From positions 1 to 33,122 of the forward strand of contig JACPSE010000211.1 of assembly GCA_016193465.1 (NCBI GenBank): a stretch of DNA of 33,122 bases, in the 5' to 3' direction. The position numbers and the translations under genes are program-made. This DNA comes from Deltaproteobacteria bacterium. GTDB taxonomy: Bacteria > Desulfobacterota > Binatia > UBA9968. This document shows, piece after piece, positions 24,388 to 31,578 of this stretch. The notes beneath the pieces are model-generated. The model had not been told where the DNA came from and did not search any database. It was given only the letters and a program-made list of their open reading frames with translations. Each line of letters opens with the position of its first letter. The first letter of the stretch is position 1.

Positions 24388-24412
<25 letters not shown>
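24185..24412 (-). CDS. Possible small basic protein (75 aa) overlapping clpB
   Basis: The product is rich in Lys/Arg ([35 protein letters not shown]), which would suit RNA or ribosome binding. The frame overlaps the last 25 nt of clpB. The ATG at 24412 has only a very close GAAGAGG sequence as ribosome site. It may be a real small gene or chance, and it fills most of the space between clpB and the MFS gene. Confidence 0.35.
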
Positions 24413-27018
<2,606 letters not shown>

Positions 27019-27044
27019 GGTTTTCTATTCCGCACAGTGAGCAG

Positions 27045-27073
27045 AATTTAACCACCGCTGTGGGGCGTGTCAA
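27045..27073 (-). promoter_or_regulatory. Putative sigma-70 promoter of clpB
   Basis: TTGACA (27073-27068) and TAAATT (27050-27045) on the minus strand are 17 bp apart. A heat-shock sigma-32 site was considered, since CTTGACA is followed by CCCCA, but the spacing is too short for that. Confidence 0.5.
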
Positions 27074-27102
27074 GAAATGAAATCGTCAGGCGAGATGCAG
27101 GC

Positions 27103-28467
27103 TTAGACGGGGAGCAAGATAGTTAAGGTGGTGCCCTCGACCGGGTTACTTTGAACGTCGATCCTGCCGCCGTGCATGCTCACGATGTGGCGGGCGACGA
27201 AGAGGCCTACCGTGTTGACATCCGCCCCGCGCCGGCGAAGTTTTTTCTTCCTGTTGAAGAGCAGGGGAATCTCCTCCTGGAAAATGCCGGCGCCGCTGTC
27301 TTTTATGGCGATTGCAACCTCGCTGTCTTGGCGCCGCAAACTTACGGTGACGCCGCTTCCGAGGGGCGAGAGATTAATAGCGTTGCTGATGAGGATGCCA
27401 ACGGCACGCTCGATCTGCACGGCGTCGATAGAGATCATCGGGAGGTCATTGGGTGACTCGAGAGCGAGGTCGATGTTTTTCGCGCTCGCCTCGCTCTGCC
27501 TGTCCTGGACTGCCAACTCCAGGATCTGTTTGATCTCGAAGGGGTTCTTCTGTATTTCCAATTTTCCCGCTTCGATGTCCAAGGCCCCGGTGTGATTCAT
27601 GACCAGATCGAAAAGGCGCCTGGCGAGCGCGTCAACCCGTTGTATCGAGAGAATCTGGGATGCTTCTACCCGCTCGGGGCTGATTGAGGAGGCGATCTCC
27701 AAGTAGCCGATCATGGCTGCTAAGGGGGATTTCAAATCCTCGGCAATATCCGCGAGGACCTCGTCCGCGGCCTCCTCTTTGGGGCTTTCATCGCGACTCT
27801 CCTGCAAAGCGCTTCTCAACCTGCTCGCCTCTTCCCGGAGGCGCTCGGCTTCCGCCTGGAGGCTGGCGGTCTCCTCCTGGCGCGGTTCGGATTCCGCTTG
27901 GAGTTTTCTGACCGCATCCCTATAGCGTTCGATTTCTTGTTGGAGCTTGCCGGTTTCTTCCCGGAGGCTCTGGGCCTCGTTGCGGTAACGCTCGCTTTCC
28001 GCTTGGAATTTCTGAGCTTCCTCCTGGTAACGCTGGGCTTCAGTCTCTAGCCTCTTCGCTTGCTCTTGATAATGTTCGCTCTCTGACTTAAACCTCTTTC
28101 TTTCCTCGCTTCTGGCTATGGCCTGGGGAATTTCCTGGAGGTGGGAGAGATCCGGCTGCTTGATGACAAAATCCCAGGCGCCTTGCCTGAGCGCTTCGTC
28201 CACAACCGTCAGCCTTTCCAAAGATGCCATCACAATGACAGCGACGTCGGGAAACAGGCTGGAGATCTTCTGCAGCGTTTCGATCCCGGCCCGATGTAGA
28301 TCCAGGTCCAGGATCACGCTGTGCTTCCTATCGGCTTCCAGGGCAGCCAGGCAGCTCGGCAAATCTTGAACCACAGTGACCTTGATGCCTTTGGCATCAA
28401 GTTCCCGCCGGGTTTGATGCGAGGGCCTCTTGCCTCCCTCCAACAAAACGACCTTCATCTCTCCCAT
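27103..28467 (-). CDS. Receiver-coiled coil-degenerate histidine kinase
   Basis: The 454-residue protein has a receiver-like domain (4-120) with phospho-acceptor Asp54 (VILDLDLH) and Lys103, but without the usual acidic pair at its start (it reads LLEGGK). A long coiled coil follows (about 120-225), built of repeated Tyr/Gln/Glu-rich units. The HisKA-like region reads IAEDLKSPLAAMIGY with Glu243 where the phosphorylated His would be. The HATPase region keeps the N-box (ISNAINLSP) and DSGAGI, but the second glycine box is poor (NTVGLFVARHIV). It is probably not a working kinase and may act as a phospho-sensing scaffold. It is the last gene of the KaiC-like operon. A second ATG, 9 nt downstream, is an alternative start. 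Confidence 0.75.
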   Translation of the reverse strand: MGEMKVVLLEGGKRPSHQTRRELDAKGIKVTVVQDLPSCLAALEADRKHSVILDLDLHRAGIETLQKISSLFPDVAVIVMASLERLTVVDEALRQGAWDFVIKQPDLSHLQEIPQAIARSEERKRFKSESEHYQEQAKRLETEAQRYQEEAQKFQAESERYRNEAQSLREETGKLQQEIERYRDAVRKLQAESEPRQEETASLQAEAERLREEASRLRSALQESRDESPKEEAADEVLADIAEDLKSPLAAMIGYLEIASSISPERVEASQILSIQRVDALARRLFDLVMNHTGALDIEAGKLEIQKNPFEIKQILELAVQDRQSEASAKNIDLALESPNDLPMISIDAVQIERAVGILISNAINLSPLGSGVTVSLRRQDSEVAIAIKDSGAGIFQEEIPLLFNRKKKLRRRGADVNTVGLFVARHIVSMHGGRIDVQSNPVEGTTLTILLPV

Positions 28468-28494
28468 AGACCGGTTCCCGACGCTCCGTTAGGC

Positions 28495-29685
28495 TCAGGC
28501 TTGGGTGATATCGACCCACTCGGACATGGCGGTCCCCCACTTCATGCTCTGCGCCCGACCCAGGAATCTCTGCTCCTCGTTCCTGAATTCCAACACCCCA
28601 TCCATGATGTATTTGATGTTATTCAAGGTTTGATCATTACAAGCCCCTTGCTCGACGACGAAGATCGTTGAGACCCCGGCAAAGTGGCCCGAGCGCGCCA
28701 AAAAAGCGATAAAGCGCTGAACATAAGGAAGCTCGAAGTTGAGAAAAAGGCTTGAGATGGAATCCACGACTCTCTTCCCGCCCGTTTTCGTTTGGTCTGT
28801 CTGTCCCAGTTCAGCCCCCGCTTCACTGATGAGCGCGGAGAGATCGGAGAGTTCAAGGCTCCCCGTAATGGCGAACTTCTCCTCAGGGGCGGTTCGCCCT
28901 CCGCTCCAGGAATAGGCATCCACGAAGCGTATTTGGTTTTGGCCTTCACAGGTAGAGAGATCCAAGCTGTATTTTGAGTTCAGTTCTCTGCGCACCATGG
29001 ATGGATCGTCGTCCATGCAGATGAACATGCATTTTTCGCCCTTCTTCAGCCCTTGGGCCAGGAAAAGACGGCAAAAAAAAGATTTGCCGCTTCCGAGAGA
29101 GCCCAGGGCCAGGATGCTGGAGCCCGGCGGAATCGGGGCGCCGAAAAGCTGCTCGAGCACATCCTCTCCAAGGCTAAGGCTCCTGACGGGAGCGATCGGC
29201 CTGGCAGGAGCGGCGGTCATTTCTTCCTTCAACACAATGGGTTGTGCCACCTGGATGATAGGCTGGGCGGTCTGCGGCGCGGCTGGGACCACTTCGACCT
29301 TTTTTGCTACGGCTCTCTCCAGGATGTTGGCCACGCGGGCCTTAAGGACCTTCAAGGAGAAGGGCTTGGTGAGGTAGTCATCTGCCCCCACCTGGTATCC
29401 TCTGATCCGGTCCTCATCCGTAGATAGAGCCGTCAGCATGATCACAGGGGTGAGGGCAAACCGGGGCAGGTCGCGTAGTTTGTGGCACACCTCATACCCG
29501 TCCATCTCCGGCATCATGACATCGAGGATGATGAGATCCGGGGTCACGGTGGGGATTTTGTCCAGCGCCTCTTTGCCATTATAAGCAAAATGGACCTCAT
29601 ATCCTTCCGCGCCCAAGGCCATCCGGTATAGCTCGCAGAAGTGCTGATTGTCCTCAGCGATAAAGATTTTTTTTCCGTTGGCCAT
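28495..29685 (-). CDS. Response regulator receiver fused to KaiC/RAD55-like ATPase
   Basis: The 396-residue protein has an intact receiver domain (about 5-125): acidic pair E11/D12, Asp55 in ILDVMMPEMDGYEV, Thr85 and Lys107 in LTKPFS. A proline/alanine linker (about 130-165) leads to a RecA-fold domain with Walker A GSLGSGKS (195-202) and a Walker B-like RVVDSISSLFL (D308). The ATPase part is similar in plan to the next gene. An AAAGGA site lies 7 nt before the ATG. Phosphorylation of the receiver probably controls ATP binding by the RecA-fold part. The kinase that phosphorylates it is not visible nearby, since the adjacent one lacks its histidine. Confidence 0.85.
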   Translation of the reverse strand: MANGKKIFIAEDNQHFCELYRMALGAEGYEVHFAYNGKEALDKIPTVTPDLIILDVMMPEMDGYEVCHKLRDLPRFALTPVIMLTALSTDEDRIRGYQVGADDYLTKPFSLKVLKARVANILERAVAKKVEVVPAAPQTAQPIIQVAQPIVLKEEMTAAPARPIAPVRSLSLGEDVLEQLFGAPIPPGSSILALGSLGSGKSFFCRLFLAQGLKKGEKCMFICMDDDPSMVRRELNSKYSLDLSTCEGQNQIRFVDAYSWSGGRTAPEEKFAITGSLELSDLSALISEAGAELGQTDQTKTGGKRVVDSISSLFLNFELPYVQRFIAFLARSGHFAGVSTIFVVEQGACNDQTLNNIKYIMDGVLEFRNEEQRFLGRAQSMKWGTAMSEWVDITQA

Positions 29686-29703
29686 AACTTTTCCTTTAAA
29701 GAA

Positions 29704-30426
29704 TCAGAGAACCGGTTTCAAGACGATTCCCTTTTCTTTTACAATGTTAAACTGATGTTCCATTAGATCAATTGCCGTACCCCGCATCTTACGCACCAGG
29801 AGAGTGCGGACTAGCCGGCTTTGCACCCTGACAAAGCTAAGAATGATAACCCCTGCGACCAGAAACTCCTCCACCCCCCCCTCGCCTGCTCCTGCTATTG
29901 CTGGAACAGCGTAGGAAGTAAGAAGGTTGGTCGTTCCCATATTGTCTTGGAGGGAATGAACCAGGGTGCGCACATGTTCCTGAGCGCGTGCGGAGGAATC
30001 GCGGGAGAGGATCAGCGGTCCGACCGGGTCGATGACTACCCGCGTGGCCCCCATTCTCCTGACATGGCTGGCAAGATCCCCCACCGTCTTCTGCACATCC
30101 ACCTCTTTTTCCTTCCCTCCGGCGCCCATTCGGGCGCTGAATAGGGGAGAGGCGTCCAAGATAAGCAAACTTTTTTGTTCGATGTACTTGAGCAGGTCCC
30201 ATCCCAGAGCGGCAGCCTCTTCCAGGATGTCGGACGGCCTCTCATCCACGGCTACGTAAACCGCTTTTTCGCCATCCGTCAGCCCTTTCAATATAAATTG
30301 CATGCAGAATATGCTTTTGCCGGTGCCCGACTCCCCGGTGATGAGGTAAGACTTTCCTTCTGTAAGCCCCCCCTCGATCAGCGGATCAAGACCCAGGATC
30401 CCGGTAGAAAGCCTTTTTTTTTCCAT
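29704..30426 (-). CDS. Single-domain KaiC-like (RAD55 family) ATPase
   Basis: The 240-residue protein has one KaiC-type RecA fold: STGILGLDPLIEGGLTEGKSYLITG leading to Walker A GESGTGKS (31-38), VDERPSDILEEAAALGWDL with a conserved acidic residue (E62), and Walker B TRVVIDPVGPLIL (D133). The C-terminal RKMRGTAIDLMEHQFNI segment is typical of KaiC-like proteins. Unlike cyanobacterial KaiC it has only one domain and no partner kaiA or kaiB nearby, so a clock function is not suggested. It is the first gene of a three-gene operon, 18 bp before the receiver-KaiC fusion. Its fourth to sixth codons hold a run of nine A. Confidence 0.87.
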   Translation of the reverse strand: MEKKRLSTGILGLDPLIEGGLTEGKSYLITGESGTGKSIFCMQFILKGLTDGEKAVYVAVDERPSDILEEAAALGWDLLKYIEQKSLLILDASPLFSARMGAGGKEKEVDVQKTVGDLASHVRRMGATRVVIDPVGPLILSRDSSARAQEHVRTLVHSLQDNMGTTNLLTSYAVPAIAGAGEGGVEEFLVAGVIILSFVRVQSRLVRTLLVRKMRGTAIDLMEHQFNIVKEKGIVLKPVL

Positions 30427-30479
30427 AGCCTCAAGGTATGATTTTTAACACTTTTTTTCCCTGTTTGAAAGCTTTGCAT

Positions 30480-30508
30480 TTGAATTGACAAAAAGGCACA
30501 GTTAGAAT
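30480..30508 (+). promoter_or_regulatory. Putative promoter of hisC
   Basis: TTGAAT (30480-30485) and TAGAAT (30503-30508) are 17 bp apart. The start would be at 30515-30517, right at the ATG, so the mRNA would be leaderless. A better -35 match, TTGACA at 30485, is only 12 bp from the -10 and is discounted. Confidence 0.45.
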
Positions 30509-30516
30509 CCGTTGCC

Positions 30517-31578
30517 ATGTCTCGTTACGTAAGGAAAAATATCGCCGCCATAGAGGGTTATATTCCCGGCGAGCAGCCGCAAAATAGCGGCTTCGTCAAG
30601 CTGAACACCAACGAAAATCCCTATCCGCCCTCGCCGCTGGTTCGCTCGGCATTGCGCCGGGCGGCGGATGGGTCGCTCCGTCTTTACCCAGAGCCCCTAA
30701 GCAACAGCCTGAGATCATTGGCGGCAGAGAGATTCGGGCTTCGGGCCGAGAACATTCTCGCGGGAAATGGCTCCGACGAACTGCTGTCCATCCTGGCGCG
30801 CTGCTTTGTGGGACAGGGAGACCGCGTGGTCTATCCGGTACCCACCTACACCCTTTACGACACCCTGATTGCTATCCAAGAAGGGGAAAGGGGAGGCGTT
30901 GATTATCCGCCTGATTTTTCCCTTCCCGAAGCGCTCTACTCCGAAAGAGCAGTTTTAACATTTCTCTGTAATCCCAACTCTCCTTCGGGGACCCTGGTTT
31001 CCCTAAAGGAGATCGAGAGATTGGCGGGATCGGTCTCAGGCATCCTGGTTGTGGACGAAGCTTATATCGATTTTGCCGAGGGCGAGGGAGTATCCTCTAT
31101 TCCCCTGATTCGGAATTTCCCGAACCTCGTCGTGCTGCGCAGCTTCTCCAAATCTTTTTCCCTGGCCGGCATGCGCATCGGCCTTGCCTTCGCAGCCGAA
31201 GAGATTATCGCCGACATGATGAAGGTCAAAGACTCCTACAATTTGAGCCGTTTGAGCCTCATCGCCGGAGTGGCAGCGCTCCAGGACCTTCCTTGGATGA
31301 GACGCAATGTCGCCAGGATCCAGCGGAGTCGCAAGAAGTTAGCCCGCAGGCTGAAGAAGCTGGGCTTCCGAGTTTATCCCTCCCAGGCGAATTTTGTGAT
31401 GGCGCGAAGGGAAGGCCAAAATCTGCGCGGACTTTACGAGGGACTCAAGCGGCGAAAGATCCTGGTACGCTATTTTGACGTGCCTGGGCTCCAGGACAGT
31501 CTCAGGATTACCGTCGGCACGCCTCAGGAGGTCGGTGCGCTCTTAAAAGAGCTGGAGTCGATTGAGATGGATACCTAG
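30517..31578 (+). CDS. hisC: Histidinol-phosphate aminotransferase
   Basis: The 353-residue class I/II (fold type I) enzyme has KLNTNENPYPPSP at its start, GNGSDELL, YPVPTYTLYDTL, CNPNSPSG, VVDEAYIDF and the PLP lysine K212 in SFSKSFSLAGMRIG. It converts imidazole acetol phosphate to histidinol phosphate in histidine synthesis; some homologues act on aromatic amino acids. The other his genes are not here. The ATG has no Shine-Dalgarno site. A VOC gene follows after 37 bp on the same strand. Confidence 0.93.
   Translation: MSRYVRKNIAAIEGYIPGEQPQNSGFVKLNTNENPYPPSPLVRSALRRAADGSLRLYPEPLSNSLRSLAAERFGLRAENILAGNGSDELLSILARCFVGQGDRVVYPVPTYTLYDTLIAIQEGERGGVDYPPDFSLPEALYSERAVLTFLCNPNSPSGTLVSLKEIERLAGSVSGILVVDEAYIDFAEGEGVSSIPLIRNFPNLVVLRSFSKSFSLAGMRIGLAFAAEEIIADMMKVKDSYNLSRLSLIAGVAALQDLPWMRRNVARIQRSRKKLARRLKKLGFRVYPSQANFVMARREGQNLRGLYEGLKRRKILVRYFDVPGLQDSLRITVGTPQEVGALLKELESIEMDT

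Follow-up and report, generated by a model that had tools for sequence, protein, structure and literature searches.

What does a KaiC-family ATPase do when its gene stands in a row with those of a second KaiC domain fused to a receiver and of a kinase-like protein? KaiC-like ATPases are common outside the cyanobacteria, and their functions are mostly unknown. The row in question lies within 33,122 nucleotides of contig JACPSE010000211.1 (assembly GCA_016193465.1), a stretch referred to as the window. From the letters alone, an earlier note had described three minus-strand reading frames, separated by gaps of 18 bp (KaiC1/REC-KaiC) and 27 bp (REC-KaiC/pseudokinase), and had read them as encoding a single-domain KaiC-like ATPase, a fusion of a receiver with KaiC, and a receiver/coiled-coil/kinase-like protein. 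Both the frames and, by Pfam searches, the domain calls were confirmed (Table 1).

Table 1 Features of the KaiC locus and of related loci. Coordinates are those of the window unless a locus is named
Feature	Coordinates	Strand	Evidence
KaiC1, single-domain KaiC-family ATPase	29704..30426	-	240 aa; PF06745, solved KaiC match, residue table
REC-KaiC, receiver + linker + KaiC domain	28495..29685	-	396 aa; Pfam, alignments, model, fold search, residue table
Pseudo-histidine kinase, receiver-like/coiled coil/DHp/HATPase	27103..28467	-	454 aa; Pfam, alignments, tree, model, fold search
hisC/KaiC1 divergent intergenic region; presumed operon promoter site	30427..30516	.	Intergenic sequences side by side
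Promoter-like TTGACA-17-TAAATT ahead of clpB; unit boundary, outside unit	27045..27073	-	Consensus scan, intergenic sequences
Long protein near KaiC, L076	3164-4957
Long protein near KaiC, L082	2568-4445
Long protein near KaiC, L083	8585-11560	-
Long protein near KaiC, L086	2474-7528
Long protein near KaiC, L099	2397-5441	-

KaiC1 matched PF06745 at 1e-61 (208.7 bits; curated cut-off 26.6) and a solved KaiC at 5e-45. It keeps Walker A, D61-E62, D133 and a KMRG finger (K213, R215), and in the alignment to the solved KaiC its D-E pair sits where the CI domain has a pair of Glu residues. REC-KaiC matched both PF00072 (2.5e-30) and PF06745 (1.4e-17, 64.3 bits, cut-off 26.6) and is laid out as a receiver (residues ~1-125), a disordered linker (~128-174) and a KaiC domain (~175-396). 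Its AlphaFold model reached a mean pLDDT of 78.6, with residues 128-174 of the linker below 50, and a fold search matched it to receivers (VicR, Z 23.4) and to the KaiC-type ATPases PH0284 (Z 26.2) and KaiC (Z 24.0).

The receiver of REC-KaiC is complete: all five catalytic positions are occupied (E11/D12, D55, T85 and K107), and D12, D55 and K107 were invariant in 17 REC-KaiC receivers. Walker A is intact in both ATPases, as is the Asp of Walker B; the KaiC domain of REC-KaiC carries an altered catalytic Glu position (D226) and an altered finger (SMKW). This finger reads [STAH]-x-K-W in 18/18 REC-KaiCs, and the second residue of the Glu pair is Asp in 16 of the 18, Ser in genome G308 and Glu in genome G314. 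The sole exception to the kept catalytic residues among the KaiC1 proteins is also found in G314, where the Glu is replaced by Val. Such a reciprocal change, seen in this single case, would be compatible with complementary subunits. The finger of KaiC acts across the subunit interface. Because Walker A and the Lys of the finger region are kept, REC-KaiC may nevertheless be fully active despite its altered residues. The genome of the window encodes a further single-domain KaiC of 317 aa (L095 7681-8634, G000:C193), in which D-D stands in place of the Glu pair and the finger reads KMRA; its orthologues occur in G297 and G299 (L091 and L088).

A REC-KaiC of the window's type was found in 9/148 genomes of the class, directly preceded by KaiC1 in all nine. 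The pseudokinase gene follows downstream in seven of them, which belong to three genera, so that the trio recurs in six genomes besides that of the window. A failure of the genes to stay together in related genomes, which the earlier note had named as evidence against a unit, was not what these genomes showed. G308 and G321 hold the KaiC1 + REC-KaiC pair without the pseudokinase, the pair of G308 occupying the same slot between hisC and clpB. In G314, the complete trio stands in a different neighbourhood, adjoining the gene of a solute-binding protein, and the hisC-clpB slot contains one lone KaiC. This indicates that the trio holds together when its context changes. All three genes are under purifying selection, with the pseudokinase the least conserved (dN/dS 0.10-0.26), these ratios being approximate since dS approaches saturation in most comparisons. 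Judged from gene order and sequence, KaiC1, REC-KaiC and the pseudokinase are a conserved unit, the third gene of which is a family-restricted addition. The three-gene unit proposed in the earlier note thus stood as conserved, refined into two layers, a widespread pair and a pseudo-histidine kinase specific to one family. At locus L068 (2422-3087, minus strand), the KaiC1 of G297 loses its reading frame at about residue 186, and its correct C-terminus follows in another frame, the result of either a small deletion or an error in the assembly.

Upstream, the trio is bounded by the divergent hisC and downstream by clpB. The hisC/KaiC1 intergenic region contains A/T-rich stretches that looked similar in relatives when compared by eye, and the scan found no minus-strand sigma-70 site above its threshold there. 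Ahead of clpB, a predicted promoter (TTGACA-17-TAAATT, a 10-of-12 match to the consensus) occurs at the same place in the window and in loci L069, L070 and L071 of the relatives G298, G299 and G305, and visual inspection suggested a weaker counterpart at two loci that are more distant. Therefore, clpB has its own promoter-like site and probably lies outside the unit; membership of ClpB was judged unlikely, given this conserved site and the existence of pairs unlinked to clpB.

Across the family, the order hisC, KaiC gene set, clpB is constant (window 24388-31578, loci L068-L099), and the KaiC genes in between vary in number and kind: there are sets in which none has a receiver, tandem sets and sets with REC-KaiC (L068-L099). 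In sister genera, proteins of ~600-1700 aa that lack Pfam matches are encoded just upstream of KaiC genes, which in most cases are tandem KaiC-KaiC pairs between hisC and clpB. Four of these long proteins were inspected and were coiled-coil-like.

Beyond the class, a single pattern-based scan, covering 84,980 species genomes, yielded nine distant REC-KaiCs, a lower bound for the cross-phylum count, with best-segment identities of 40-52%. Their hosts are Margulisbacteria, UBP8, a metagenome-assembled genome labelled Rickettsiales, Planctomycetota and other bacteria. A phylum-wide search with full-length REC-KaiC as the query returned ordinary receivers. KaiC1 lies directly upstream at 6/9 of the distant loci, the frames touching or overlapping at several. 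Of the others, REC-KaiC of the Termititenax locus stands between two KaiC genes, the upstream one being divergent, and the planctomycete locus has a kinase and a single receiver upstream of REC-KaiC in place of KaiC1; one distant locus ends at a contig edge. The pseudokinase was absent at all nine, and the downstream genes tested there were unrelated. In the KaiC tree, built with a quick method that leaves some long branches and an unsure deep branching order, the REC-KaiC domains formed one clade (SH-aLRT 99) apart from KaiC1. The second KaiC of the tandem pairs in sister genera was rejected as the source of REC-KaiC, since those copies branch within the KaiC1 group and REC-KaiC forms a separate cross-phylum clade.

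At the planctomycete locus (L117 6149-9693), the genes of a protoglobin-PAS histidine kinase with its His present, a single receiver and REC-KaiC stand in a row, which makes this locus a candidate for a REC-KaiC with a linked active kinase. Further His-bearing kinases, relatives of the pseudokinase with the motif ALAHDIKNPLG, adjoin single-domain receivers in two genomes (L131 2-1509; L133 239-2016, minus strand) and are candidates for acting on REC-KaiC.

The third protein of the trio matched HATPase_c (2e-17), more weakly REC (6e-11), and HisKA below the threshold. At the phosphoacceptor position it has Glu (E243), and the orthologues have E, E, E, D, D and Q; all 14 other histidine kinases in the tree have His, including the nearest relatives. 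The pseudokinases form a fully supported clade on a long branch. Their N box and G1 box are kept, and the GTGLGL of the G2 box is replaced by xTVGL. The degeneracy that the earlier note had ascribed to this kinase is thus borne out, and on sequence grounds the third protein is a true pseudo-histidine kinase, with a histidine kinase fold that lacks the phosphoacceptor His. Without this residue it cannot be the ordinary kinase for the receiver of REC-KaiC. As the His is missing from 0.9% of HisKA domains (PMC12632262), such a protein is of an uncommon yet known kind. Its own receiver keeps D54, S82 and K103, but the second acidic position is occupied by Gly in 7/7 sequences; under the definition given in PMC12632262 it would be a pseudo-receiver, for which weak phosphorylation is possible.

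In comparisons with the window, the DHp was the most constrained domain of the pseudokinase (dN/dS about 0.06, approximate like the ratios above) and the coiled coil, which is long and varies widely in length, the least. The structural model, built from seven sequences (pLDDT 76.8), had DivL as its top fold match, by a small margin over ordinary kinases, HK853 among them; LvrB was matched as well. The top NCBIfam match was PRK09303, which we take to be SasA. As an identification of the protein this match was given no weight, because it reflects a general similarity of DHp and catalytic domains.

Taken together, the results point, with a probability of roughly 0.4, to a phosphorylation-gated KaiC-type ATPase in which KaiC1 fires, REC-KaiC is its gated partner and the pseudokinase acts as a DivL-like reader. 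KaiC1 and REC-KaiC would assemble into a single ring, mixed or stacked, in which KaiC1 does the firing and REC-KaiC is a regulatory subunit that fires poorly. A kinase encoded elsewhere would phosphorylate the receiver of REC-KaiC and thereby alter the ATPase activity or oligomer state of KaiC1. The pseudokinase, as a dimer, would dock on this receiver through its conserved DHp surface in the way that DivL reads DivK~P. Consistent with gating are the position of KaiC1 upstream of REC-KaiC in 9/9 genomes of the class and at 6/9 distant loci, the intact trio of G314, the complete receiver, the asymmetry of the catalytic residues and the His-bearing kinase beside the planctomycete REC-KaiC. The role as a reader is favoured by a DHp that is strongly constrained although its acceptor His is gone, and by DivL as the best match of the model. 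Against gating, two of the REC-KaiC genomes in the class and all nine distant loci lack the pseudokinase, and one locus has a REC-KaiC but no KaiC1. We regard as doubtful the fuller proposal of a composite ring, in which a receiver-bearing, altered KaiC gates a canonical KaiC and is read by a pseudo-histidine kinase with a usually acidic acceptor residue, so that the output of a two-component system would be an ATPase ring instead of transcription.

Several other explanations have to be weighed. Solved KaiC-family proteins are often homohexamers, and KaiC1 and REC-KaiC might likewise form separate homohexamers with separate jobs, merely co-expressed, the pseudokinase controlling one or neither; Walker A and Walker B are kept in both ATPases, and the planctomycete REC-KaiC does without an adjoining KaiC1. 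The tight cross-phylum pairing and the clade-wide difference in catalytic residues instead suggest mutual dependence, which makes this unlikely. The conserved DHp surface would also suit a phosphatase for REC-KaiC~P in which Glu, Asp or Gln has replaced the His, giving a phosphatase-gated ATPase, and the conserved His is not essential for HisKA phosphatase activity (PMC12632262). The same study, however, argues against phosphatase activity as a role that pseudo-histidine kinases share in general. As the residue at the acceptor site is not constant (E, D or Q) and the G2 box is degenerate, we consider a phosphatase quite unlikely.

That the third gene is simply a decaying kinase, its linkage to the functionally important pair being without meaning, could account for its being the least conserved of the three and for its widely variable coiled coil. 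Yet the frame is open and under purifying selection in seven genomes of three genera, the DHp is its most constrained part, and the gene has stayed with the pair in the new neighbourhood of G314; decay is therefore improbable. SSO2452 binds single-stranded DNA, and the model of REC-KaiC matches this RecA-family paralogue with Z 22.9, as might be expected if the pair were a receiver-regulated, DNA-acting RecA-type system like SSO2452 or RadA. However, all KaiC-type ATPases share this fold, and within the family the pair was not seen linked to repair genes, UvrD genes following it at two distant loci only, so that a DNA-acting system appears very improbable.

Returning to the phosphorylation-gated ATPase, we compared the trio with known systems. 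The KaiABC clock was rejected because KaiB is missing and each KaiC protein has a single KaiC domain: no KaiB match was obtained in the genome, which is rated 100% complete, by a search whose control recovered that of Synechococcus, and KaiC1 and REC-KaiC have one KaiC domain each, with no CI-CII double domain in one protein. SasA is an active kinase. The cyanobacterial clock resembles the trio in joining the KaiC ATPase fold with two-component proteins, and differs in its KaiB and in the thioredoxin-like KaiC-binding domain of SasA (PDB 6x61).

DivL of Caulobacter (PMC4211667; PDB 4q20) binds DivK~P without kinase activity and, like the proposed receiver reader of the trio, has a histidine kinase fold without the phosphoacceptor His. 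It carries Tyr or Ala at the acceptor site, PAS domains and an intact G2 box, whereas the pseudokinase has Glu, Asp or Gln, a degenerate G2 box and no Pfam match to a PAS domain, its DHp being preceded by the receiver-like domain and coiled coil; moreover, the proposed partner receiver is here fused to an ATPase. LvrB of Leptospira (PMC13269768; PDB 8vc9) has a REC, coiled coil, DHp and catalytic domain in the same order as the pseudokinase, yet its kinase is active and its REC is phosphorylated, whereas the pseudokinase lacks the acceptor His and has Gly at the second acidic position of its receiver.

Archaeal KaiC-family signalling hubs and KaiC-REC fusions have been described by Makarova, Galperin and Koonin in 2017, according to Galperin et al. 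2018 (PMC5847659), where the fusions are reported only from six genera of Methanosarcinaceae. As described there, they likewise fuse a KaiC-family ATPase to a phosphoacceptor receiver and link KaiC to two-component proteins; the trio differs in being bacterial, in its dedicated single-domain KaiC partner gene and in the pseudo-histidine kinase of one family. For archaeal or bacterial REC-KaiC fusions, a literature text search with subscription literature outside its scope returned PMC5847659 only and no account of such a bacterial fusion, in keeping with the earlier note's suggestion of an undescribed system. Within the literature searched, a bacterial REC-KaiC paired with KaiC1, and the pseudokinase added to this pair, seem to be undescribed, the parts being known and the combination not.

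With its complete receiver, the cross-phylum pair offers a handle on a possible control of KaiC ring activity or assembly by phosphorylation. Where the family has added the pseudokinase, this protein may be a second case, besides DivL, of a reversed flow of information in a two-component system.
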